64,000 nt of DNA, from positions 62,001 to 126,000 of the forward strand of contig JAVCCE010000063.1 in assembly GCA_030765645.1 (NCBI GenBank), in the 5' to 3' direction. This DNA comes from Candidatus Hinthialibacter antarcticus (lineage in GTDB: Bacteria; Hinthialibacterota; Hinthialibacteria; Hinthialibacterales; Hinthialibacteraceae). Under the pieces are notes generated by a model. That model made no database searches. It was given only the letters and a program-made list of their open reading frames with translations, and had not been told where the DNA came from. The translations under genes and the position numbers were made by a program. This document shows, one piece after another, positions 15,273 to 64,000 of this stretch (positions within the stretch are counted from its first letter, which is position 1; every line of letters begins with the position of its first letter).

Positions 15273-15815
15273 ATGAAAAATGGTTTTACATTAATTGAAT
15301 TGCTCATCGTCGTCGCCATTATTGGAATTCTCGCAGCGATTGCTGTACCTAACTTTTTGAATGCGCAACTCAAAGCGCGCATCGCAGCCACCGAAGGCAA
15401 CATGAAAGCCATCGGTACTGCGCTTGAGATGTACTCGATTGATTACGGTAAGTATCCCAACACCTATCTGCCCGACTCCGTAACATTTATTAATCCGCGC
15501 ATCATCCGTTTTCGCCGATTGACTACGCCCGTCGCATATATGTCAGCGAGCGTACGCGACGTTTTCAATACAGTCGATTTTCAAGAAAACGCCGTCTACC
15601 CGTTCTGGGGACCCGACACGATGGACCATCGAAGGATGGGGACCTGGTTTGACGATCCATCAATGGCGACATATAAAAATCAAAAGGGCGGTTGGGCCAT
15701 CATGAGTTTTGGTCCCGACCTCGATTTTGAATCAACGGAAAAGCAATACTTGTTATGGTTTAATTTAACGAATGGATTAAACAGCGACGGTGACATTTAT
15801 CGCGTCGGCCCTTGA
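15273..15815 (+). CDS. Type II secretion/type IV pilus-like pseudopilin (1)
   Basis: The 180-residue protein starts at MKNGFTLIELLIVVAI, with a GGGGA ribosome site. The short leader MKNG followed by FTLIE is the prepilin peptidase site: cleavage after Gly and methylation of Phe. The next ~22 residues are the hydrophobic assembly helix. The C-terminal domain is GspG-like with the pattern MSFGPDLDFE...NGLNSDGDIYRVGP, closely shared with the second pseudopilin (28957). It is followed 49 bp later by a secreted LamG protein. It would be a filament subunit or an adaptor for secretion. Confidence 0.9.
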   Translation: MKNGFTLIELLIVVAIIGILAAIAVPNFLNAQLKARIAATEGNMKAIGTALEMYSIDYGKYPNTYLPDSVTFINPRIIRFRRLTTPVAYMSASVRDVFNTVDFQENAVYPFWGPDTMDHRRMGTWFDDPSMATYKNQKGGWAIMSFGPDLDFESTEKQYLLWFNLTNGLNSDGDIYRVGP

Positions 15816-15864
15816 TGTGAAGTTAAATCTAATTTGGTTGTTACTATCTCTTTGGAGGATGGAC

Positions 15865-17904
15865 ATGATGAAACCGTTTTATACTGCTTGTTCACTTTTA
15901 CTGCTCACATGCTTCGCGACCGCCTCTTGGTCTCAACTCGACGAATCAAAGTTAACCTGGAAACCCGACCGGGGCGTCTCACTGAACGGTTATAGCAATT
16001 ATTATGAAGTCGAACCGAGTTCAGACTTTGACGTATTTGCAATCACCGTCGAAGCCTGGGTGAAATTTCGCGACAACGGCGGTCAGCAACAAGTGGTCGG
16101 GCGCGGATCTGGCAGCCAGTTCTTCACCCATTACGCCAACAATGGAAACTACCGTTTTCTGGTTGAAAACGTCGGCGTCGATTACGGCCTCGCCGAAATT
16201 GAAGTCCCTCCGGTTGATACTTGGGTGCATATAACAGGAACCTATGATGAAAATATGGTTCGCCTGTATTACAACGGCGTATTGGTTGCAGAAACCGAAC
16301 ACCCCGGCGTAATGAACGGCGGCGACGTCCCTATTTTAATTGGAGCGCTTTCACCCGGTGAACGCCATCTCAATGGATTAATTGAAAACATTCGCATCTG
16401 GGACAAAAGCCTGTCGCAAGAAGAGATCGACCAACTACTCTCGACGGCGCCAACTGATGAAGATATTGATGCGATGAAGAGCAACGGCTTGGTTTCGTAT
16501 TGGAGTTCCAGCGCCTCATCCAACGGTGAATTGACGGATATGGCGGGCAACCATAATGCTGTTCTTAAAGAATTCACTCTGGATGAAAGTCAACTTTCGT
16601 TTAAGCCGGAAGGCGGTATTTCATTTGATGGAAAAAGTACTTACATTCAAATTGATGACGTTGCAGACTTCAATGTATCCGCGTTTTCCGCTGAGGTTTG
16701 GGTTTACTTTGACGCATCATTTCAAAATCAGGTTTTCATGAACCGCGGTGGCGCTCCATCTGACTTTACGTTTTACCTTTATGATCGCGTTCGCTTTTTG
16801 ACGCAAGATGCAAGCAGTTACAGCCACGCGAATGGCCTCGTTCCTCCAGCGAAGACTTGGGTTCATATTGTCGGGACATTATCGGAAGACGGAACCAAGC
16901 GGCTTTATTACAACGGCATCCTTCAACATGAAATCACCAGTTCTCCGAATCCAACGAACAATGACGATACGCTTTATCTTGGCGCACTAGAGCCGGGCAG
17001 CCGCCATCTCGACGGTCAAATGGAGAACATGCGCTTCTGGGGCAAAGCGTTGAGTGAAGAAGAAATTCTCGCTTTGCTGCAAACGCCTCCTGAAGAAGAA
17101 GACATCCCCGCGATGGTCAGCAATGGCTTGATCGCATATTGGGCGCTCCGGTCGGTAGACGGAACGACGATCGCAGACTTGAGCGGCAACGGTCACGACG
17201 GCGCGGTGAGCGCATTTGAAATTGATAAAAGCCATCTCACCTTTTCTCCAGGAGACGGCATTCATTTTGACGGCGCCAATACATACGCGCTCTATGAAGA
17301 TCCGACGCCGTTTGACATTGACCTCATCACCGTCGAAGCCTGGGTCAAACTCGCGCCTATTTTTCAACTGGTAGATATCGGCAATCGCAGCATCGTCAGC
17401 CGCGCAGGCCTCGATGTTAGTTTTTCATTATATGGCAGTAATTCCTTCGGCAACCGGCTGCACTTCCAGATGGGCCCGTTTGGCGACGCCGCAGCGCCCA
17501 TGCCGCCGTCGGATGATTGGATTCATGTTGCGGGAACCTACGACGAAACGACGCTCAACCTCTATTACAACGGCGTATTGGTTGATAGCGTCAATGCCCC
17601 CGGCATCATTGATTGGCCGGACGGCCCGGTTTTCTTCGGAGCGTTTTCGCCAACATCGAGTGTATTTGAAGGCTCAATGGACTACATTCGCATTTGGGAC
17701 CGCGCATTGTCTGAAAGCGAAATTCAAGAATTACTTGCGACCTCGCCAGCAGATGAAAATATCTCGCAAATGGCGCAAAACGGGCTAATCGCTTACTATT
17801 CATCCAGCGCAGCGACCGATGACATGCTTGAAGATTTGAGCGGTAACAATATCAACGCTTCGTTGATCGGGTTCTCACCCGTCGCCAACTGGAGCCTGTA
17901 TTAA
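15865..17904 (+). CDS. Secreted protein with three tandem LamG-type domains
   Basis: It is 679 residues from the ATG 6 nt after GGAGG; the ORF extends upstream into the pilin gene but without a ribosome site. The signal peptide MMKPFYTACSLLLLTCFATA is followed by three repeat units of about 215 residues. Each unit has a concanavalin-like LamG domain (F.G...Y, VEAWV, WVHITGTYD, LYYNGVLV, IGALSPG, IRIWDKSLSQEEI) and a tail of the form NGLIAYW...DLSGN. LamG folds bind glycans or proteins in the extracellular space. The protein ends VANWSLY, the shared V-x-x-W-[SA]-[LM]-Y motif. It has no catalytic domain. Its second unit resembles the LamG domain of the next gene more than its sister units. Confidence 0.87.
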   Translation: MMKPFYTACSLLLLTCFATASWSQLDESKLTWKPDRGVSLNGYSNYYEVEPSSDFDVFAITVEAWVKFRDNGGQQQVVGRGSGSQFFTHYANNGNYRFLVENVGVDYGLAEIEVPPVDTWVHITGTYDENMVRLYYNGVLVAETEHPGVMNGGDVPILIGALSPGERHLNGLIENIRIWDKSLSQEEIDQLLSTAPTDEDIDAMKSNGLVSYWSSSASSNGELTDMAGNHNAVLKEFTLDESQLSFKPEGGISFDGKSTYIQIDDVADFNVSAFSAEVWVYFDASFQNQVFMNRGGAPSDFTFYLYDRVRFLTQDASSYSHANGLVPPAKTWVHIVGTLSEDGTKRLYYNGILQHEITSSPNPTNNDDTLYLGALEPGSRHLDGQMENMRFWGKALSEEEILALLQTPPEEEDIPAMVSNGLIAYWALRSVDGTTIADLSGNGHDGAVSAFEIDKSHLTFSPGDGIHFDGANTYALYEDPTPFDIDLITVEAWVKLAPIFQLVDIGNRSIVSRAGLDVSFSLYGSNSFGNRLHFQMGPFGDAAAPMPPSDDWIHVAGTYDETTLNLYYNGVLVDSVNAPGIIDWPDGPVFFGAFSPTSSVFEGSMDYIRIWDRALSESEIQELLATSPADENISQMAQNGLIAYYSSSAATDDMLEDLSGNNINASLIGFSPVANWSLY

Positions 17905-17942
17905 TCAATGAACCAGCGCTGCATAATGATAGATACAATCAT

Positions 17943-17970
17943 GAGGAGGCGGCCATTCGCCTCCTCTTTT
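17943..17970 (+). terminator. Hairpin terminator after the triple-LamG gene
   Basis: GAGGAGGCG-gccatt-CGCCTCCTC is a 9-bp perfect GC-rich stem followed by TTTT. It separates the pilin/LamG pair from the next gene. Confidence 0.8.
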
Positions 17971-18007
17971 CATGCGCGTTTCGTCATCAACTGTAAGGAG
18001 AACTGAT

Positions 18008-20077
18008 ATGATTTCTTTTCGCAAATTCCATCGCCATTTGATTCTACTTTTCCTATTGCTTTTGTTCCCTGCGTATTTGTATGCTCAGGATGGTTGGACT
18101 CCAACCAATGGAATCGAATTCAACGGATCGAACCAATATATTCAAGTTGACGCGCTCAATGGCTTTCAAGGCAACGAGTTTACCTTAGAAGCCTGGATTC
18201 AACTCAACCACAACGACGGCAGCCAGATTTTTATGAACCGGGGCGCCGCCAGCGAAGAATTCACCTTCTATTTATATGATGGAAAAATACGGATGCTGAC
18301 GCAAGATCAATCCGGCTATTCACACGCCAACGCCGATCCTCCTCCAGCGGGCGAATGGTTTCATTGCGTCGGCGTTTATAAAAATGACGGAACAAAACAA
18401 CTGTTTTATAATGGTGAATTGAAGGCGACTACACGCGGCGCCCATCGCCTGTTGCAAAATGATTCGCCGCTCACCATCGGGGCCTTTTTGAACGGTTTCA
18501 TAACGGAACGCTTTCTCGATGGGCGTATGGAAAACATTCGCATTTGGAACCGCGCTCTCCCGCAAGAAGAGATTAACGCGCTAGCGAAAGCAGACCCAAG
18601 CAATGACAATTTGACGGTGTTGCGCGAGAATGGAATGATTGCCTACTGGTCTTCGCGAACGCTTCACGGAGACACGATTCAGGACCTCAGTAGTTACAAC
18701 AACCACGGCAAATGGATTGAGTCGAAACCCGCCGAATTAATCGTTAAAACCCTCCCGGCGCAAGGCTACCAAGGCATCTGGTATAGTAACCAGCCTTCCG
18801 ATGACGAATACCGATATAAATACAGCGGCGGGCTGGGGACTTACTGCGCCAAACATCGCCACCACGCGCAGTATGCGCCCGAAGTGAATAAAACCTTTTT
18901 CGTCTATGGCGGAACCAAAGGCTATCGCGAAACAAATGCGTTGCTGATGATGGTTTCGTATTATGACCATGCGAGCAATCAACTCGCCCGCCCGGCTATC
19001 CTGCAAGAAAAAGGTACATCAGACGCGCACCACAATCCCGTACTTGAAATTGACCCGCAGGGCCACTTGTGGATTTTTGCCAGTGCGCACGGCGGTAAAG
19101 ACGGGTTCATCTGGCGCAGCGTAAATCCCTATTCAATTGATGAATTTGAGTTGATTGAACAGAAAGAATTCACTTACCCGCAACCGCGCTTCGTCCCTGA
19201 CTTTGGGTTCATGTTTTTATTTACGAAATACACGGGCGGTCGAGAGATGTACGTCAATACCAGCGCTGACGGTTTGCAATGGGGCGCTGATAAAAAAATC
19301 AGCGGCTTCGGCGGACACTATCAGGCCAGCGAACAACACGGCGCCGTGCGTGGAACGGCGTTTAACTATCACCCGCCCGTAGGCGGTCTCAATGCACGGA
19401 CGAACATCTATTACATGCAGACGAAAGACTTTGGCGAAACCTGGACGAACATCCAGGGCGAGACGCTGCAAATTCCACTCGACAAGCCAGACAACCGCGC
19501 GTTGGCGCACGACTACCAGGCGGATAAAAAACTGGTCTATCTCAAAGACCTGATCTACGATCCGAGCGGTAATCCGGTCATCTTTTACACACTCAGCGAC
19601 GGTTTTGAATCCGGCCCGGAGAACGGCGAACGCATGTTGACCATCGCCCATTGGGTGGGCGACGAATGGCGCTTCCATTCCGTCGCCGCCGTCGATCACA
19701 ATTACGATATGGGGTCGCTTTGGATTGAGCCGGGCGGCGCATGGAAGATGATTGCGCCTACGGAACCCGGCCCGCAAGCCTATTGCACCGGCGGCGAAGT
19801 CGCCCTGTGGCAGAGCGACGATGAGGGAGAACACTGGCGCAAGGTCCGCCAACTTACCTCTGGCAGCCCGCGTAATCACACGTATGTTCGCCGCGTTTTA
19901 AATGCGCATCCCGATTTCTACGCCTTTTGGGCGGACGGCGACGCGCTTAAGCCTTCGATTTCGCGGCTGTATTTTTGCAACCAATCCGGCGACCGCGTTT
20001 GGATGATGCCGCCGGAAATGACCAGCGACTTACAAGCGCCCGAATTGTACCTCGCTTCCGAAGTGAAGATGCATTAA
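18008..20077 (+). CDS. Secreted LamG plus BNR-repeat (sialidase-fold) protein
   Basis: It is 689 residues from the ATG that follows AAGGAG. The signal peptide is HLILLFLLLLFPAYLYAQ. Residues ~25-235 are one LamG unit (GIEFNGSNQYIQVDAL, FTLEAWIQL, IRIWNRALPQEEI). Residues ~250-689 match the BNR_4 type of beta-propeller: YRYKYSGGLGTY, SYYDHASNQLARPAIL, DAHHNPVLEIDPQGHLWIF, SADGLQWG and similar repeats. Such proteins are often found in polysaccharide-utilisation loci as putative sugar-processing enzymes. The activity of this one is unknown. It does not carry the C-terminal W-S-L-Y motif. A strong terminator follows. Confidence 0.85.
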   Translation: MISFRKFHRHLILLFLLLLFPAYLYAQDGWTPTNGIEFNGSNQYIQVDALNGFQGNEFTLEAWIQLNHNDGSQIFMNRGAASEEFTFYLYDGKIRMLTQDQSGYSHANADPPPAGEWFHCVGVYKNDGTKQLFYNGELKATTRGAHRLLQNDSPLTIGAFLNGFITERFLDGRMENIRIWNRALPQEEINALAKADPSNDNLTVLRENGMIAYWSSRTLHGDTIQDLSSYNNHGKWIESKPAELIVKTLPAQGYQGIWYSNQPSDDEYRYKYSGGLGTYCAKHRHHAQYAPEVNKTFFVYGGTKGYRETNALLMMVSYYDHASNQLARPAILQEKGTSDAHHNPVLEIDPQGHLWIFASAHGGKDGFIWRSVNPYSIDEFELIEQKEFTYPQPRFVPDFGFMFLFTKYTGGREMYVNTSADGLQWGADKKISGFGGHYQASEQHGAVRGTAFNYHPPVGGLNARTNIYYMQTKDFGETWTNIQGETLQIPLDKPDNRALAHDYQADKKLVYLKDLIYDPSGNPVIFYTLSDGFESGPENGERMLTIAHWVGDEWRFHSVAAVDHNYDMGSLWIEPGGAWKMIAPTEPGPQAYCTGGEVALWQSDDEGEHWRKVRQLTSGSPRNHTYVRRVLNAHPDFYAFWADGDALKPSISRLYFCNQSGDRVWMMPPEMTSDLQAPELYLASEVKMH

Positions 20078-20085
20078 TTCAAACC

Positions 20086-20130
20086 AAATGTCCCCCCCGC
20101 CTTAGAAATGGGGCGGGGGGGACATTTTTT
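20086..20130. terminator. Bidirectional terminator between convergent genes
   Basis: AAATGTCCCCCCCGCC pairs perfectly with GGCGGGGGGGACATTT over 16 bp around a 10-nt loop, followed by TTT on the plus strand and preceded by AAA. It sits between the stops of the LamG-BNR gene (+) and the GH106-like gene (-). Confidence 0.9.
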
Positions 20131-20151
20131 ATCGTAAATCCCTTTACCTAA

Positions 20152-23100
20152 CTAATAAACCACGAACGGCTCAAACAAGCCATAGCCGATGGTGTCGTAT
20201 TGTTCGCCTGCGGGCTGTCCGCCTTTGGGGTTTTGATGAAACGCGCTGGGCCATGCTCTGCCGCGCATCTGTCCTGCGTGATGCGGTCCCAACAGGTTTT
20301 TGAGGCTTCCCATTACAACAACCGAAACCGTATTCTCGCCGCGTTGTAGCGCATCGGTGATGTCGAGACGATAGGGTTGCCAAAGAATATTGCCGACTGC
20401 CTTGCCGTTTACTTCGACGCGTACCGCTGTACCGAGCCAATTGGGCAACTCGACATAATGTTGCGACTTATCGTTAGCGCCGAGCGTGTAGGTTTGTTCA
20501 TAGGCAACCGCGTCTGAATAAAACGGAGCGCCCTGTTGGTTCCATGCGCCCGGTTGCAACGGCTGGGGCGGCGTGACGGCGTAGCCGTTTTCAACCGACT
20601 TCAAATTGAACTCGCCGAAGAGGTAAGCCGGTTCCGCTTCCATGTGGAGCGAGAATGGTTTCGCAGCCGTCGTGATAATATTCTCACCGTTCTTAAGCCA
20701 TTCCGGTTTGATGGAATAGACAGTAAACGCGCGGTCAATGCGCCATTCGCCGGGATTGGGTTTCACAACATGGTTATTGATTGTCACTGTATAGAAGCCG
20801 CCGCGTTCGACGACAAACTCCAACGCGGGCATGTCGTTGAAGCCTTCAATGGTAAATGGGTATTGAAACTCGAAACCGGAATCCGCGGGGAAGTGGTCGC
20901 GCTTGAGGATTTCATCTTTGAATTGCACCGCGTTGTCCCACGGGTTTTTGTCGAAGCCGTGCGCTTTGTAGACGGCGGTTTGTGCGTCATAAAAATACGC
21001 GCCCTGTTGTTTGCTTCCGTTGACTTCATAGTTGACGTAATCGAGGGTGAGCACGTTGGCGTCTTGCCGCGCAATCCGCATTTCACCAGAGGGTGTAAGC
21101 GGCTTTGATTTTTCTTGCCAGGTTTGGGGCGCGACTGTTTGGTGATTGGGCTTGTTGTTATACACCGCAAACAAGGCGCTGCCTGCGGGCGGCAAATTAA
21201 AATCAAACGATACCGCGCCGCCGTCTTTTGTATAATCAGCCGTTTCAATTTTCCCGGTTACAGCGTTCCAGTGTTCAGCGTAGGCGCCGTTGATTGTTGC
21301 GCTGCCTTTTGATGAATCTTCGAGACTGGTGTTGATGAGAAATACCAATTTGCCGTCGTCCAGGTCGCGGGCGAAATGAAAGACGCGGCCTGCTTCTGGC
21401 GCGTCGGCGTCGATGACGACGCCAGCGTTGCCCCAGCGTTGCGCCAGTTGTTCGGCGGTGAGTTTTTCGTCGGTCCAATTATCGCCTGCGTGTTTTTTTA
21501 TTTCTTGCGCGGCGTCGCTTTTGGTTCCGCCTTCATAGGTTGGGACGCCGACGTAGCTGACAATCGTCCCGCCGTTGGCGGCGAATGTTTTTAATAACTC
21601 AATGGTGCTTGTTTCTAATGCTTCTAGCCCTGGTGGAAGTACAACAACATCATACGCGCATTGCCCGACGATAAGTTGCTTGCCTTGCGCCTTGGCGATC
21701 TCCGCCATCACGGGTTCGCTGCCCAGGTCGAAGGCGATTTGCTTCGCGCCCAGTTCTGTGACATAAGATTGGAACTCTGCGCCCAGGTGATTGAGTTTTT
21801 CGCCCTGGCTGCCGCTCCAGTTATACATCCACATGGTGACGGTCGGCTCAATGACGAGAATCGGCGCGTCGGCTTTCCCGGCGGAAAGCGCCCACGACAA
21901 GCGGCCAAAGTAATCCATTGGAATATGAAACGCATCCCAGAAGGGCTGGTGATACGAGAACGATTGCGGATGGTCGCGCTTTCTGGCGCCCATGATGGTG
22001 TAATAACTCAGGTGCGGGTTCATCAGATTTACGCCGCCCGCAAACAGGTGGTCGCCGATTCGTTTGACGTCTTCCAGGCGCAAATCCCAGCCGCCGGCGC
22101 CGTAGGTTTCACACAAACGGCGGGTGCGGCCCAATTGGTTGGCAATACTGTCGAGTTCTTTATTGGCGCGGTAGTTGCCGAATTGCGCATTGGCGCTTTC
22201 GCTGTATTCGTTCATCAAGCAGTCGATGCCGGGCCATTGCTGCCAGCGATAAAAACTCATGATGTCCGGGTTGTGGTTCAAATGGGGCCAGCCGTGTTCC
22301 CAGACGTGGCCTGTTAAAGCAATGCCGCGTTCGGCGCATGCTTTGGAATACGGTTCCACAAAATTATCTATAAACAATTGAAGAATGGTTGCCGAATAAT
22401 CGTGCCGCACCTTGCGCCAGTCGCCCACGTCGCTGTGGATGGACGGCAGGCAGTCGAGAATGTTGTAACCCCAACGCGCCTGAAACGCTGGCGGGACCAT
22501 CGACGACCAAGCGCCTGCGACTTGCGGCTCGTCGGTGAAAGACGCCAGCACGGTTTTTCCATAGAGGTCAGACAAGACGGAATCGTACGCGTCGAAGGTG
22601 AGGTCAAGAAAGCGCTTCGATACGTCAGGGCGCATGACGTCAACATACGTCTTGCCGCCGTACCAGGGCGACGGGCCGGGGTATTGTTCTGTATAAAGGA
22701 TGTAGTCGCCCTCGGCTAAATTTAGGTCCGCTGCGGAAAGCGTTTCGCCTTTTGGGATCGTAGGCAGTTCGACCCGTTGATATGCGCCGGTTTTTTTATC
22801 AGCAATTTTGTATAGTGCAATTGCAGTTGAATTGAGTTCGAGCGTTTTTATCTGTTCTGCGCTGATGTCTTGACGGCGCAACGAAACCTGCCCCGAGCCG
22901 GGAATCTCATCGGGGACATGACCGCCCGCGAAGCCGGACGGATAACTGTTTTCATCATAAATGTAAGTCACCATGCCGCGCTTGGCGGATTCATCCGCAG
23001 TGAAGCGCCACATCTCAAGCCAACGGTCAGACAGATAGGGCGTAATTAAACCGGGGCGGGGATGAACAAAGACGCCGCCGAAGCCGCCCGCTTTGAATTC

Positions 23101-23304
23101 GTCTAACTGGAGCGCAAGTTCTTTTTCTTCCATGTCGCCGTTCCATGTGTAGAGCGGGGCGGGGCGATACGCGGCTGGCGGGTCGGCGAAATGTTCAAGC
23201 GCCTGTTTCAGCGAAGTGATTTTCACATCGCCCGGATTGGCATGAGTGAATAACGCGCTGGCTGTAATCAGGATGCTAAAGAAGGTAGTAAAAAGAACTT
23301 TCAT
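20152..23304 (-). CDS. GH106-like glycoside hydrolase (alpha-L-rhamnosidase family), secreted
   Basis: The 1050-residue protein has signal peptide MKVLFTTFFSILITASALFTHA. The N-terminal barrel shows the GH106 pattern: YTWNGDMEEKELALQLDEFK, GGFGGVFVHPRPGL, LEMWRFTADESAKRGM and YIYDENSYPSGFAGG. A galactose-binding-like C-terminal region (YVELPNWLGTAVRVEVNGKAV...WQPYRLDITDALQRGENTV) is typical of these very long enzymes. GH106 enzymes remove alpha-L-rhamnose from plant or algal polysaccharides, but many relatives are untested. It acts in the periplasm or outside. Its surroundings (exported oxidoreductases, LamG-BNR) fit a sugar catabolic role. The start is clear: ATG at the signal peptide, with GGGAGAC upstream. 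Confidence 0.85.
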   Translation of the reverse strand: MKVLFTTFFSILITASALFTHANPGDVKITSLKQALEHFADPPAAYRPAPLYTWNGDMEEKELALQLDEFKAGGFGGVFVHPRPGLITPYLSDRWLEMWRFTADESAKRGMVTYIYDENSYPSGFAGGHVPDEIPGSGQVSLRRQDISAEQIKTLELNSTAIALYKIADKKTGAYQRVELPTIPKGETLSAADLNLAEGDYILYTEQYPGPSPWYGGKTYVDVMRPDVSKRFLDLTFDAYDSVLSDLYGKTVLASFTDEPQVAGAWSSMVPPAFQARWGYNILDCLPSIHSDVGDWRKVRHDYSATILQLFIDNFVEPYSKACAERGIALTGHVWEHGWPHLNHNPDIMSFYRWQQWPGIDCLMNEYSESANAQFGNYRANKELDSIANQLGRTRRLCETYGAGGWDLRLEDVKRIGDHLFAGGVNLMNPHLSYYTIMGARKRDHPQSFSYHQPFWDAFHIPMDYFGRLSWALSAGKADAPILVIEPTVTMWMYNWSGSQGEKLNHLGAEFQSYVTELGAKQIAFDLGSEPVMAEIAKAQGKQLIVGQCAYDVVVLPPGLEALETSTIELLKTFAANGGTIVSYVGVPTYEGGTKSDAAQEIKKHAGDNWTDEKLTAEQLAQRWGNAGVVIDADAPEAGRVFHFARDLDDGKLVFLINTSLEDSSKGSATINGAYAEHWNAVTGKIETADYTKDGGAVSFDFNLPPAGSALFAVYNNKPNHQTVAPQTWQEKSKPLTPSGEMRIARQDANVLTLDYVNYEVNGSKQQGAYFYDAQTAVYKAHGFDKNPWDNAVQFKDEILKRDHFPADSGFEFQYPFTIEGFNDMPALEFVVERGGFYTVTINNHVVKPNPGEWRIDRAFTVYSIKPEWLKNGENIITTAAKPFSLHMEAEPAYLFGEFNLKSVENGYAVTPPQPLQPGAWNQQGAPFYSDAVAYEQTYTLGANDKSQHYVELPNWLGTAVRVEVNGKAVGNILWQPYRLDITDALQRGENTVSVVVMGSLKNLLGPHHAGQMRGRAWPSAFHQNPKGGQPAGEQYDTIGYGLFEPFVVY

Positions 23305-58441: not shown

Positions 58442-59878
58442 TTATGCTGTTTGTGAATGGTCATCTGCCAGTATCCGGTCGAGCAGTAATGCGCTGATTG
58501 TTGAGGTGAGCGCGCCTGCGGGCACCCAGACGGTCCAGTGGAAGCCTGCGAATGAAACCGAGACGACAGCGACCACGCCAACGATCATACCAATTGTCAC
58601 TGCGCGTTGGCTTCGCATCGGCGTAAAGATGCCCAAGACAAACGCCGCCAGTAAACTGCCGAATGTGTAACTGGGGATGCTGAGCGCCAGGTCGAGAATA
58701 TTCTCTTGCAAGGTGCTCGAAATCAGCGCGATGCCGATCAGGACGATCATCCATAAGACGGTGAATGCGCGTGAAAGTAAAACCAGTTTGGAATCGCACA
58801 ATTCTTCTTTCAACGAAGGGATGACAAAGTCGGTGATGGTGGTGGATGAAAGCGAATTCAGCGCGGAGGCGGTGCTTGACATGGCGGCGGACAGTATCGC
58901 CGCCAACACGAACGCGCCTGCCGCTGGGGGCATGACATCCACGGCGAAGAAGGGCAATATCTCGTTGGCTTTGGTCACGCCTTCCGGCAGTGCGCCGTCG
59001 TAAAAACGGTTGAGCATGACGCCGACGAAAAGTAGAAAACTAAACAATACAAATACCACGCCGCCGCTGAGCACCATCGCCCATTGTGCGCTGCGCAGGT
59101 TGCGGCATGAAAGCAGGCGCTGGACTAGATCTTGATCGGCGCCGTGAGAGGCGAGGTTCAAACAGAAGCCGCCGATTAGCCCGAGTAGAAAACCTTTGCC
59201 GCTCCAATCCCAATGGAAAACGGTGAATTTCCCGGCGCTTGAGCCGTATTCTATTATCGTCGGCAGCCCGCCGGGAATGGTGTTCAGGATATAAAAACAA
59301 ACAAACAATCCGCCCAACATCATCACGGCGAATTGGATCACTTCCGTCCAGATGACGGCGGCGAGGCCGCCCATGACGGAGTACAAAACAGCGATGATTC
59401 CAGTGATAATGATCGCAGTGGTTACGTCCCATCCGGTCATGGCTTGAATGACGACCGCTGCGGCGAAGTGCCGTACGCCCGCCGCCATGGCGCGGGTGAT
59501 AAAGAAAAACACGCCGGACGTTTTTTGCACTTCCTTACCGAAACGGCGGCCTAAGAATTGATAGATGGTGACGATTTCGTGTTCAAAGAACTTCGGTAGG
59601 AAAAAGTACGACAATACAAAACGCGAAAGGATATACCCCATCACCACTTGCAGAAACCAGAAGTCGCCGCCTTCGACGAACGCCTGCGCAGGCGCGCCGA
59701 TGAAAGTCACCGCGCTGGTTTCGGTCGCGACGATCGCCGCCAGCGCCGCCCAGGTAGGCATGCTTCGCCCTGCGACGAAAAAATCCTGAATCGACGATTG
59801 GCGGCGCGAACACCATACGCCAATGGCGATTAATACGGCGAGATAAATAAAGAGAATCAAATATCCGGTGGTTGTCAT
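58442..59878 (-). CDS. Sodium:solute symporter (SSS family)
   Basis: It is 478 residues from the internal ATG (MTTTGYLILFIYLAVL); the longer ORF adds 25 non-membrane residues. It has about 13 membrane helices. FFVAGRSMPTWAALAAIVATETSAVTFIGAPAQAF is the Na+-binding first-helices region of SSS proteins, and SAAMSSTASALNSLSSTTITDF matches the conserved Ser/Thr-rich later helix of this family. Members import sugars, amino acids or sialic acid with Na+. It is the first gene of a five-gene unit with the peptide-type ABC parts and the methyltransferase. Confidence 0.92.
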   Translation of the reverse strand: MTTTGYLILFIYLAVLIAIGVWCSRRQSSIQDFFVAGRSMPTWAALAAIVATETSAVTFIGAPAQAFVEGGDFWFLQVVMGYILSRFVLSYFFLPKFFEHEIVTIYQFLGRRFGKEVQKTSGVFFFITRAMAAGVRHFAAAVVIQAMTGWDVTTAIIITGIIAVLYSVMGGLAAVIWTEVIQFAVMMLGGLFVCFYILNTIPGGLPTIIEYGSSAGKFTVFHWDWSGKGFLLGLIGGFCLNLASHGADQDLVQRLLSCRNLRSAQWAMVLSGGVVFVLFSFLLFVGVMLNRFYDGALPEGVTKANEILPFFAVDVMPPAAGAFVLAAILSAAMSSTASALNSLSSTTITDFVIPSLKEELCDSKLVLLSRAFTVLWMIVLIGIALISSTLQENILDLALSIPSYTFGSLLAAFVLGIFTPMRSQRAVTIGMIVGVVAVVSVSFAGFHWTVWVPAGALTSTISALLLDRILADDHSQTA

Positions 59879-60088
59879 AGGTTCGGTGTACAAGTGCGGA
59901 ATTTGCGCCACTAAGCATACTTCGCACTTGCTTGAGTTCCAACCCGAAATCATCTGGATTCATCAAAGAATTGTAGATTCAATACAATGTAAAATGATTA
60001 AATTGTAAGATTGGCGATTATCATTCCAATTCAAAGCCGGGTTGGATACAATTTGTTGCTGTAATAATTAAAGAACCGAAGAGCCTCA

Positions 60089-61141
60089 ATGAACCAAGAC
60101 TCCATGAGCCGTTTGAATGAATTAAAGCGGATTGCGTTTCCTGAGTTGGTCGGTAAACAGACGCTGCGCGATTTGATGCGTAAGCGCCGCCGCGCAATGG
60201 ATTCGCGCCTTTCGCTCTATAAAAGCAAGCGTATTGCTGAGCGCATCCTTGCGATGAAGGAATTGAATAACGCATCCACCATTGCGATGTATGCGTCAAT
60301 GCCGGAAGAAGCGTCTACGGATGGACTGGCGCAAGCGTTGTTGCAACGGGGCGCGGCTTTGTTGTATCCCGTCACCAGCGGCGATGCGATTGAGTTTTAT
60401 AAAATCACTTCGCTTGAGTCGCTTTCGGTGAATGGCGCATTCGGCATTCGCGAGCCGGACATAAATATATGTCCTCGCGTTGCGATTCAAGAAGCGGATG
60501 TAATCCTGGCGCCTGGAGTCGGCTTTGATGTGTTCGGTGCGCGCATCGGCTTCGGCGGCGGTTATTATGACCGGCTGTTAATCCAAAAACGGGAAGACGC
60601 GCTTGTTGTTGGCCTCGCGTTTGAGTCGCAAGTGGTCCATGCGGTCGAAACCGAAACGCATGACATGGTGATGGACGTCGTCGCCACCGACGATACGCTT
60701 TATCGCCCGCATCTGTCTGAAACCGTTTGTGAAAACGAAGATGAAACCCGGCGTCTGGCGCGTTCAATTTTAGAGAAAAAAAGTGACGGCGTGATTGCGT
60801 TGCACGGCAACCTGGGCGCGGGCAAGACGTGTTTCGTGAATGGTCTTGCCGAGGCGCTGCATACTCGTGAAGCCGTTGCCAGCCCGACTTTCGTCTACTG
60901 CCGCGAATATCACGGCGATAAACTTTTGATTCATGCTGACGCGTATCGACTTGAATCGGTTCCGGAATATGAGACCGACTATTGGGCGCAACTATTTGAA
61001 AGCGACGGCGTGGTTGCGGTCGAGTGGGCGGAGCGACTCGGCGGCTTACTGCCCAAGTCGGCGGTGCATTGTTTTAGCGAAGTGGTTTCTGAAAATACCC
61101 GGCGCTGGACGCATTTTAAAACTCGCGCTGAGGGGGAATAA
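60089..61141 (+). CDS. Fusion of 5-formyltetrahydrofolate cyclo-ligase and TsaE
   Basis: The 350-residue protein is a single uninterrupted ORF. Residues ~20-208 are the cyclo-ligase (also called MTHFS): KQTLRDLMRKRRRAM, ATP site region YPVTSG, and the diagnostic GFGGGYYDR at 154-162. Residues ~212-350 are TsaE, the ATPase that supports t6A tRNA modification: Walker A HGNLGAGKT (239-247), ASPTFVYCREY (264-274), HADAYRL (282-288) and EWAERLG (312-318). Both halves are full length with no linker to speak of. The cyclo-ligase recycles 5-formyl-THF to 5,10-methenyl-THF. Downstream are tsaB (7 bp) and rimI, so expression is tied to t6A synthesis. Confidence 0.93.
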   Translation: MNQDSMSRLNELKRIAFPELVGKQTLRDLMRKRRRAMDSRLSLYKSKRIAERILAMKELNNASTIAMYASMPEEASTDGLAQALLQRGAALLYPVTSGDAIEFYKITSLESLSVNGAFGIREPDINICPRVAIQEADVILAPGVGFDVFGARIGFGGGYYDRLLIQKREDALVVGLAFESQVVHAVETETHDMVMDVVATDDTLYRPHLSETVCENEDETRRLARSILEKKSDGVIALHGNLGAGKTCFVNGLAEALHTREAVASPTFVYCREYHGDKLLIHADAYRLESVPEYETDYWAQLFESDGVVAVEWAERLGGLLPKSAVHCFSEVVSENTRRWTHFKTRAEGE

Positions 61142-61148
61142 TTTCTGA

Positions 61149-61853
61149 ATGATTTTACTCGCGATTGATACTTCTACTTCAACCGGCGGCGTTGCCTTGC
61201 GCGATGAGGAGCGCTTGATTGGCTCGCTCAGCGTCAGTGTGGATTTAACGCACAGTGAAGGCTTGATGCCCGCGTTGGATGCATTGTTGCAACGCTGCGG
61301 CGTTGCGCTTCAGGATATCGGCGCCGTTGGGTGCAGCGTGGGGCCAGGCTCGTTTACGGGCTTGCGGGTGGGTATCGCTACCGCGCAGGGAATTGCGGCT
61401 GCGCGTGACTTGCCATGCGTCGCCGTCCCGACGTTAGACCTCCTGGCGTGGCAGGCGCCGCACGCGGGCGCCCAACTCTGCCCGCTGATCGCTGCGCGAA
61501 AAGGTTGGATTTATACGCGCTTGTTTGCGTGGGACAATGGAGAGCCTCAGCCGCAAAGCGATGAACTCTATATTGAAACAGATGAATTGTTCCCGTTGAT
61601 TCAAGAGAAGACGATCATTTATGGGCCTGCGGCGCCGATTTATTGTGACATGTTGCGCGAAGTGCTTGGCGACGATTTTCTCGAAGCGCCAGATACATTG
61701 AATACGCCGAACCCCGCCGTCTTGGCGGAACGGGCGTTCAAGGAAATTCAGGATGGCGGCGCCGTTTCAGCCGACGCATTGCTGCCGCATTATCTGGCAG
61801 CGTCACAGGCGGAAGTGACCTGGAAACAACGCCGGAGCGCCACAAAGTCATGA
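61149..61853 (+). CDS. tsaB: TsaB, t6A tRNA modification protein
   Basis: The 234-residue protein starts MILLAIDTSTSTGGVAL and contains VGCSVGPGSFTGLRVGIATAQGI, the hallmark of TsaB (an inactive ASKHA-fold paralog of TsaD). It scaffolds the TsaD-TsaE complex that transfers threonylcarbamoyl to A37 of ANN-decoding tRNAs. The gene lies 7 bp after the TsaE fusion and overlaps rimI by 4 bp. tsaD itself is not in the window. Confidence 0.95.
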   Translation: MILLAIDTSTSTGGVALRDEERLIGSLSVSVDLTHSEGLMPALDALLQRCGVALQDIGAVGCSVGPGSFTGLRVGIATAQGIAAARDLPCVAVPTLDLLAWQAPHAGAQLCPLIAARKGWIYTRLFAWDNGEPQPQSDELYIETDELFPLIQEKTIIYGPAAPIYCDMLREVLGDDFLEAPDTLNTPNPAVLAERAFKEIQDGGAVSADALLPHYLAASQAEVTWKQRRSATKS

Positions 61854-62305
61854 TTCACATCGTTGATCTTTCGTCGAGTGACTTAGATGCGGTTTGTTTG
61901 ATCGAAAATCTGTCATTCGGCGATCCCTGGAAACGTGATTTTTTTGAAGCCGAATTTCAGGTGGAATCGTTCAATTATTTTCGCGGCGCAAAAATGGACG
62001 AGCGATTGGCGGGGTATTGCCTGTTCTGGTTGTTTCCCGAAGATGATATTCAGATTACCAACATCGCCGTGCATCCTGATTTCCGCCGCCGGGGGGTCGC
62101 GACGTTTCTCTTGCAGGACGCGATAAAATCCGGGCGTGAAAAACAAGCGCAGCGAGTGATTCTTGAAGTACGCGAGTCGAATCTTTCAGCGCGTTCATTC
62201 TATGAGGGATTGGGGTTTGAACAAATCGGGCGGCGAAAGCGCTATTATGAAGACCCTATCGAAGACGCTCTGCTTTTAGGACTTTCGTTAAACGAAGCCA
62301 ATTGA
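61850..62305 (+). CDS. rimI: Ribosomal-protein alanine N-acetyltransferase RimI-like
   Basis: The 151-residue GNAT-fold protein has the acetyl-CoA pyrophosphate loop NIAVHPDFRRRGVATFLL and the typical RimI end LEVRESNLSARSFYEGLGFEQIGRRKRYY. E. coli RimI acetylates the N-terminus of ribosomal protein S18. The gene overlaps tsaB by 4 bp (ATGA). tsaB-rimI adjacency is widely conserved. Confidence 0.92.
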   Translation: MIHIVDLSSSDLDAVCLIENLSFGDPWKRDFFEAEFQVESFNYFRGAKMDERLAGYCLFWLFPEDDIQITNIAVHPDFRRRGVATFLLQDAIKSGREKQAQRVILEVRESNLSARSFYEGLGFEQIGRRKRYYEDPIEDALLLGLSLNEAN

Positions 62306-62396
62306 AAAGCATCTCCACCCTTTGGTCAGATTCAACCCACTGATACCATACGCCATGCTGAAAAATAACAAATATCGCATTGGTTGATTTAAATTG

Positions 62397-64000
62397 ATGA
62401 AATGGCTTGACGCCTTACGGCAGCCGCCGCCAAATTCTCGCCCGATTACCATCTGGGGGCCTGATCCCAGTTGGGACGCCGCTGACGTCGACCGCCAGTT
62501 GCGCGCAATTCGCGACCGGGGTTGGGGCGGAGTGATGTTGGATGATATCAGCGTTGAATCGCTGTTGATTGATGAAGACGCGCCCGGTTTTTTCTTTCCG
62601 GCGATGCAGCGCGCCCGCGAGTTAGGGCTGAGCGTCTGGCTGCATGGCGGCCCGCTGTTTATTCACGGCGCGGTGGCGCGTGAATTGGCGTTGTCAGAAC
62701 CCAAATACCGCTTGCAATTAATCCAATATATAGATCGCAAAGAGGTTCTGTCGGGCGAGAGCGTCCGTTGGGAACTAAGCGAACGGCTCGATCAAGCCTT
62801 CATTCTTGGTATGACCGAAGGCGGACGCGCGATGGATATCACGCAGTTGTATCGCGGCGGCGTGGTTGAAGGCATGGCGCCGCTGGCGGTCGACCGTTTT
62901 TTTGCGTTTGATATTCTTGAAGTTGCAGAGCGTATTCATCCCTTCCGGCCTGACGCGATGCGGGCGTTATATCGCGAGACCTTCGGCCTGTTGGCTGATG
63001 TGTTTCGTGAAGAACGCACTCTGGTTGACGGCGTGTTTCTCCCGCCTGAAGAAGTCGACTTTGCCTTACCCATGACCGCGCCTTGGTGTGACGAAATGGC
63101 CGAGGCCTTTACGCTGTTATACAAAACGGATGTATTAGAATCACTTCCATTTCTCTTCACGCCTGACGCGGGCGGCGAAGGACACCGCTGGCTCTTTCGG
63201 GGCGCACTAAAAAAAATATGGCGCGAGGCGTTGCTCGAACCGCTCACAACCATTTCCGAACGGATGCACTGGAAGTTCTCCGGGCTGTCCGAATGGAACG
63301 AACCGCCGTTTCCGAGTTCTCCGCTGCCGCCTTCTACGCCCGTGTTGGATTGGTTGAATGGTGGGCAGGGTTGGGGCGTTCTTGGCGATGACGATTATGA
63401 TTCCATTGGCGATTTGGCTGCAATCGCAGACCGTGAATTTCTGCATGGCTCACGTCAATTGGTGAATTTTTATCCCGGCTTAGTCGCGAAGCCCCGTCCA
63501 AACGGCGGCGCCAACGACCCGACCGAAGACCCGACCGAAGACCCCTTAGAACCTTGGATCGACGGCTTTAACCGATACGCGGCGCGCATTGCATCGTTTG
63601 CGCAATCCGGCGCGGCGGACATTTCGGTTTTGGCGCTTGACCCATTCGGCTCCGCGCAAGCGGCGTTTTCGCTGGACCCGCATTGCCGGCAGCGCGCGAT
63701 GGAGTGGGAGCACTCATTGCGCGAAACCGAAGACGCGCTTCAGTCGGCGGGGTACACATTTGATTGGATGCCGGAGGGGAAACTTGACGCGCTTCAATTC
63801 GACGAAGAAGGCTACTTTACGCTGTCGACGCCCAACGGCGCCAAACGGCGCTATGCGGTATTGTTGATTTCATCTGCGGTCCTCTTGCCTGAATCAACCA
63901 TGAAGCGCATCGAAGGCCTCGCGTTTCAAGGCGGTCTGGTTTTATTTGCGGGCGACTATCCCTCCGTTGTGGCCGACAACGGCGCGACCGAATCCAGCGA
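62397..64000 (+). CDS. Glycosidase-like barrel protein (GH106-related?), 3' end outside window
   Basis: The frame from the ATG at 62397 stays open to the right edge (about 534 residues). No signal peptide is visible (MKWLDALRQPPPNSRPITIWGPDP), and no ribosome site is seen. The start PITIWGPDPSWDAADVDRQL followed by IRDRGWGGVMLDDI, then ARELGLSVWLHGG, resembles the beginning of GH106-type barrels such as the gene at 20152. AEAFTLLYKTDVLESLPFLF and later ERMHWKFSGLSEW fit the same layout. A short repeat encodes DPTEDPTEDP near 63515. If it lacks a signal it would act in the cytoplasm. Family assignment is tentative. Confidence 0.6.
   Translation, partial: MKWLDALRQPPPNSRPITIWGPDPSWDAADVDRQLRAIRDRGWGGVMLDDISVESLLIDEDAPGFFFPAMQRARELGLSVWLHGGPLFIHGAVARELALSEPKYRLQLIQYIDRKEVLSGESVRWELSERLDQAFILGMTEGGRAMDITQLYRGGVVEGMAPLAVDRFFAFDILEVAERIHPFRPDAMRALYRETFGLLADVFREERTLVDGVFLPPEEVDFALPMTAPWCDEMAEAFTLLYKTDVLESLPFLFTPDAGGEGHRWLFRGALKKIWREALLEPLTTISERMHWKFSGLSEWNEPPFPSSPLPPSTPVLDWLNGGQGWGVLGDDDYDSIGDLAAIADREFLHGSRQLVNFYPGLVAKPRPNGGANDPTEDPTEDPLEPWIDGFNRYAARIASFAQSGAADISVLALDPFGSAQAAFSLDPHCRQRAMEWEHSLRETEDALQSAGYTFDWMPEGKLDALQFDEEGYFTLSTPNGAKRRYAVLLISSAVLLPESTMKRIEGLAFQGGLVLFAGDYPSVVADNGATESS

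Follow-up and report, generated by a model that had tools for sequence, protein, structure and literature searches.

Our analysis indicates that the gene at positions 60089-61141, on the forward strand of the window (the whole stretch of 64,000 nucleotides of Candidatus Hinthialibacter antarcticus DNA that was analysed), encodes one protein in which 5-formyltetrahydrofolate cyclo-ligase (FCL) is joined to TsaE, and that this fusion is conserved in its phylum, of which it looks like a specific marker protein. Very probably it is a real bifunctional housekeeping protein, with an FCL half added to the tsaE gene of an old operon and with the two halves working independently. FCL and TsaE are separate proteins in other bacteria, and the novelty lies in the combination of domains, both enzyme families being already known.

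The open reading frame begins with ATG and runs for 350 codons with no internal stop. Measured from stop to stop the frame has 357 codons; the longest frame among 300 mononucleotide-shuffled versions of this region had 256, the mean being 118. The FCL domain lies at residues 23-200 (60155-60688), where PF01812 matches with an E-value of 3e-38 and 132 bits (cut-off 27); this half also passes the equivalog model TIGR02727, with 144.8 bits against a cut-off of 84.9 and covering profile positions 1-181 of 182. The TsaE domain lies at residues 215-331 (60731-61081), with an E-value of 1.7e-29 and 102.8 bits for PF02367 (cut-off 26.6), and passes the equivalog TIGR00150 with 87.5 bits against 60.1. 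The first-pass annotation had described two complete domains in one frame, free of stops and frameshifts, and the open frame together with these four above-threshold matches bears this out. Separating the Pfam matches is a join of 14 residues (201-214, 60689-60730), which contains the junction at 60715-60725 where, according to the first-pass annotation, a missed stop or frameshift would refute the fusion.

The motifs named in the first-pass annotation are likewise all intact. In the FCL half GFGGGYYDR occupies residues 154-162 (60548-60574) and conforms to the pattern GxGxGYYDR, which we take to be the nucleotide/folate site of FCL. The TsaE half carries the Walker A sequence GNLGAGKT at residues 240-247 (60806-60829), ASPTF at residues 264-268 (its SPTF at 60881-60892), DAYRL at residues 284-288 (60938-60952) and EW at residues 312-313 (61022-61027). 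The solved FCL chains 1sou and 3hxt align with the first half, and the solved TsaE chains 6n9a, 6nak/6s84, 5np9 and 5mvr with the second; an AlphaFold2 model (two eligible sequences) reached a mean pLDDT of 46.5, too poor to show how the domains are arranged. The sequence favours a true FCL over a COG0212 FCL-like role in thiamine, and we regard the N-terminal half as a predicted cyclo-ligase. The source genome (78 contigs, 5.15 Mb, 96.5% complete) holds one PF01812 match and one PF02367 match, both within the fusion frame, and a Pfam search of the genome for a second copy of either domain detected none. The fusion would then be the only detected source of both activities in this cell.

How widely is the fusion kept among relatives? 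Our phylum sample comprised 14 genomes of 4.1-6.9 Mb, with a G+C content of 50-66% for the window and the relatives' loci; the published ranges for Candidatus Hinthialibacterota (OLB16) are 3.39-7.54 Mb and 49.7-65.0% G+C (PMC11382960). PF01812 was found in 13 of the 14 and PF02367 in 12, and in every one of the 12 genomes having both domains, that is 12/14 of the phylum sample, a single open frame of 341-407 codons holds the two. The fused profile covers these 12 intact frames over almost their full length, the relatives' proteins are 29-53% identical to that of the window, and the join measures 13-14 residues in the phylum genomes with compared coordinates, its length being nearly constant. 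An additional, marginal TsaE match in G013 (21.4 bits) fell below the cut-off and was disregarded. A separate single-sequence search of genome contigs gave one relative, L033, apparently the same contig as G004:C8.

Two genomes depart from this picture. G011, a distant member (84% complete), keeps the order FCL then TsaE, but its assembled sequence does not hold the TsaE half in one frame; its locus (L025 1714-2580, minus strand) spreads the TsaE half across three frames and leaves the FCL half intact. Sequencing error or decay could account for the break, and it could be a true loss. In G010 (92% complete) neither FCL nor TsaE was detected, though tsaB and tsaD are present, and here an assembly gap or joint loss, which could again be a true loss, may be responsible. 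Broken frames thus do occur in the assemblies of this group, as G011 illustrates, and one might ask whether an assembly or frameshift artefact has joined two neighbouring genes in the window. However, the same uninterrupted fusion stands in twelve phylum genomes, most of them mutually divergent, and because 12 of the 14 carry it we reject assembly error, an explanation that is almost certainly wrong. Relatives carry the fusion and not two genes, and the frame shows no missed stop or frameshift, so the two findings that the first-pass annotation had named as fatal to its reading did not materialize.

Both halves of the fusion are conserved at the residues expected to matter. The alignment A1 consists of 12 fused proteins (G010 and G011 were omitted, and L033 stands for G004), all 12 of which match both Pfam families. 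It has 30 invariant columns, including the glycine motif of FCL and, in TsaE, key positions of the nucleotide-site motifs. Invariant over the 12 rows are, among others, K23, R27, E74, R152, G154, G156, G158 and D161 in FCL and G243, G245, K246, T247, S265, H282, D284, R287, E312 and W313 in TsaE, while identity to the window protein in the other 11 rows is 29-52% for FCL and 26-59% for TsaE. Pairwise comparison of G006, G007 and G008 (three pairs) gave a low dN/dS, of 0.15-0.21 in the FCL half and 0.04-0.18 in the TsaE half; for the window's genome paired with G004 it is 0.29 in FCL, with TsaE saturated. Both halves are under purifying selection.

A fused gene could in principle still yield two separate proteins, if the product were cut or if translation restarted near the join, such that only the genes would be fused. 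Scattered ATG, GTG or TTG codons do occur near the join in every row, for example at codons 193-195 of the window gene. The positions of these starts nevertheless differ from row to row, and nearly all of them lack a ribosome-binding-like motif. Since no conserved internal start with such a motif is present near the join in the 12 rows, we argue for one polypeptide, and consider the production of two separate proteins very unlikely.

The fusion occupies the usual place of tsaE, ahead of tsaB and rimI. In the window tsaB (61149-61853, forward strand; TIGR03725, 161.1 bits, cut-off 69.3) begins 7 nt after the fusion and rimI (61850-62305, forward strand; TIGR01575, 119 bits, cut-off 86.4) overlaps tsaB by 4 nt, which confirms the gene order noted in the first pass; this close spacing suggests that the three genes form one operon. 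Upstream of the fusion no forward-strand promoter-like site was found, a result that says little (2 sites in 59800-62500 against 2.2 expected). In the window the fusion is preceded by a gene for a sodium:solute symporter, which lies on the opposite strand. Across the 13 genomes with the FCL-TsaE arrangement, tsaB follows the fusion directly in nine (G000, the source genome, G001, G002, G003, G005, G006, G007, G008 and G011) and lies elsewhere in G004, G012 and G013, while G009 has no TsaB above the cut-off. After the fusion comes a purM-like gene in G004; in G013 this place is taken by a gene for a type III pantothenate kinase, which lies on the opposite strand. TsaD is above the cut-off in all 14 phylum genomes and TsaB in 13, the source genome included in both counts. 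An unfused tsaE-tsaB-rimI-tsaD operon is present outside the phylum in G065, and tsaE beside tsaB and rimI is reported for M. tuberculosis in PMC5335608. Since tsaE-tsaB-rimI is thus the usual unfused layout, the neighbours explain the TsaE half only and lend no support to a link with folate.

Several further features of these loci and of the window may be recorded here. A TPR protein is encoded just upstream of the fusion in seven genomes (G001, G002, G004, at L033:3149-3895, G005, G011, G012 and G013) and does not adjoin the fusion in the window; it is TPR_21-like in two scanned genomes, the other cases, and one membrane segment, having been judged by eye. A long open reading frame at 62394-63998 (forward strand) runs off the end of the window and has no Pfam match at E ≤ 1e-8. 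At 15790-23304 two adjacent large proteins carry laminin-G-like (concanavalin A-like) domains, with a BNR_4 domain in addition in the second, and an alpha-L-rhamnosidase-like gene (20152-23304, opposite strand) stands after the laminin-G-like pair.

We found no FCL-TsaE fusion outside the phylum in the genome sets searched. A profile search with A1 over 337 genomes, with matches ranked by score and listed to a floor of about 127 bits, gave none in the 323 genomes from outside the phylum among the matches listed; intact fused members score 434-536 bits, and the best outside match among those listed, at 193 bits, covers the FCL half and extends a little past it (profile positions 25-231 of 363) and has two internal stops. 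Searches of 195 and 392 genomes of two other phyla (E ≤ 1e-58) also gave no fusion, with 10 and 5 candidates scored per genome respectively; these searches had no positive control of their own, and a very divergent fusion could escape them. Two further sets, of 6 genomes (three FCL-only matches) and of 3, contained none. Some genomes recur between these outside searches, and the totals are not additive.

A survey of 98 genomes, 84 of them from outside the phylum, bears on the more general question of whether FCL and tsaE tend to associate. Two or more matches were present in 49 of the 84, and among the matches listed for the 84 none spans both domains unbroken; in G057 one FCL match runs beyond a stop codon. 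Only G065 and G075, of the 49, have both matches less than 10 kb apart on one contig, and neither was accepted as a case of adjacency: in G065 FCL lies about 8 kb beyond the start of the tsaE-tsaB-rimI-tsaD operon, separated from it by leuA and an ABC-F gene, and in G075 FCL is encoded on the opposite strand and lipid A genes intervene. As FCL and tsaE genes stand within 5 kb of one another in 0 of the 84 outside genomes (49 with at least two matches), there is no sign of a wider association. We found no description of an FCL-TsaE fusion, or of an FCL/TsaE link, in the titles and abstracts turned up in the open-access literature, though a database entry with this architecture may exist. Homologs of yjeE and ygfA appear as separate genes in one table, in PMC3814617, of genes co-evolving with dnaE; this joint listing is no evidence of a link.

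What would such a protein do? FCL converts 5-formyl-THF to methenyl-THF with ATP, clearing a folate form that is inhibitory to other folate enzymes, and we expect the N-terminal half to be a working FCL that would turn 5-formyl-THF into 5,10-methenyl-THF at the expense of ATP. The C-terminal half would be a working TsaE, an ATPase that binds TsaD-TsaB and, after each round of t6A37 formation, an essential tRNA modification, resets it for the next. According to PMC9654439, TsaE binds TsaD-TsaB and, once t6A-tRNA has been released, must hydrolyse ATP for turnover to continue. Tied by a short linker, the halves would probably work independently of each other, with obligatory 1:1 co-expression as their sole shared consequence. 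We know of no role for FCL in t6A, and to our knowledge the FCL and t6A reactions have ATP in common and no shared intermediate; channelling is therefore implausible.

Could the fusion instead have been selected for folate control of t6A, with the FCL half sensing 5-formyl-THF or the ATP/ADP ratio and altering how TsaE binds or resets TsaD-TsaB? Retention of the fusion in 12 of 14 deeply divergent genomes, down to 29% identity, and a join whose length hardly varies would fit such a role, as would the position of TsaE as a control point of the t6A cycle in PMC9654439. The genome survey, which found no FCL/tsaE pair within 5 kb outside the phylum, and the literature, in which no such link was found, speak against it. 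So does the lack of an intermediate common to the two reactions, and we judge selection for folate control unlikely. It is decidedly improbable that the FCL half serves as a built-in folate or energy sensor controlling TsaE, such that t6A and the translation of ANN codons would follow the one-carbon pool. The functional coupling of folate to t6A raised in the first pass finds no support, there being no shared intermediate and the neighbours accounting for the TsaE half only, and its proposed formyl-Met rationale draws none from any evidence in our analysis.

For the independently working bifunctional protein that we favour, we suppose that the fusion arose early in the phylum by in-frame attachment of an FCL gene to the 5' end of tsaE, the leading gene of the usual tsaE-tsaB-rimI operon, and that it has probably been retained since. 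Gene trees (13 phylum and 13 outside rows for FCL; 12 and 4 for TsaE) are compatible with a single origin but do not demonstrate it: the phylum rows do not form one clade in either best tree, and the AU p-values for holding them together are 0.197 for FCL and 0.223 for TsaE. Since the trees fail to settle a single origin, two fusion events are possible, for example a separate one in G012/G013. Domain order and join length are common to the members, and by parsimony only we favour one early fusion.

More generally, the fusion offers a natural experiment: TsaE presumably works with an enzyme of 200 residues attached to its N terminus, which would constrain models of its docking to TsaB-TsaD. If the halves do influence each other, folate recycling would be tied to t6A; if they do not, the protein would be a clean fusion of unrelated housekeeping enzymes and a warning that a fusion need not signify a functional link.

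Each half has close counterparts among known systems. The FCL half resembles the bacterial FCL (MTHFS, YgfA or YqgN; TIGR02727, PF01812) in its full-length domain and its GxGxGYYDR motif, but it runs directly into TsaE and carries an N-terminal extension of about 20 residues ahead of the family match. The TsaE half resembles TsaE/YjeE (TIGR00150, PF02367) in its full length and in its Walker A, SPTF, DxYR and EW motifs, and shares with the tsaE of ordinary t6A operons its place ahead of tsaB and rimI (G065; PMC5335608); whereas an ordinary TsaE starts as a free protein, here it is preceded by an FCL domain. Gene fusion within the t6A system or its operon has precedents in the tsaB-rimI fusion of M. 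leprae, given in PMC5335608, and in the Kae1/Bud32 fusion MJ1130, named in a reference title in PMC9654439. In those cases, however, both partners come from within that system or its usual operon, whereas in the FCL-TsaE protein the partner is a folate enzyme.
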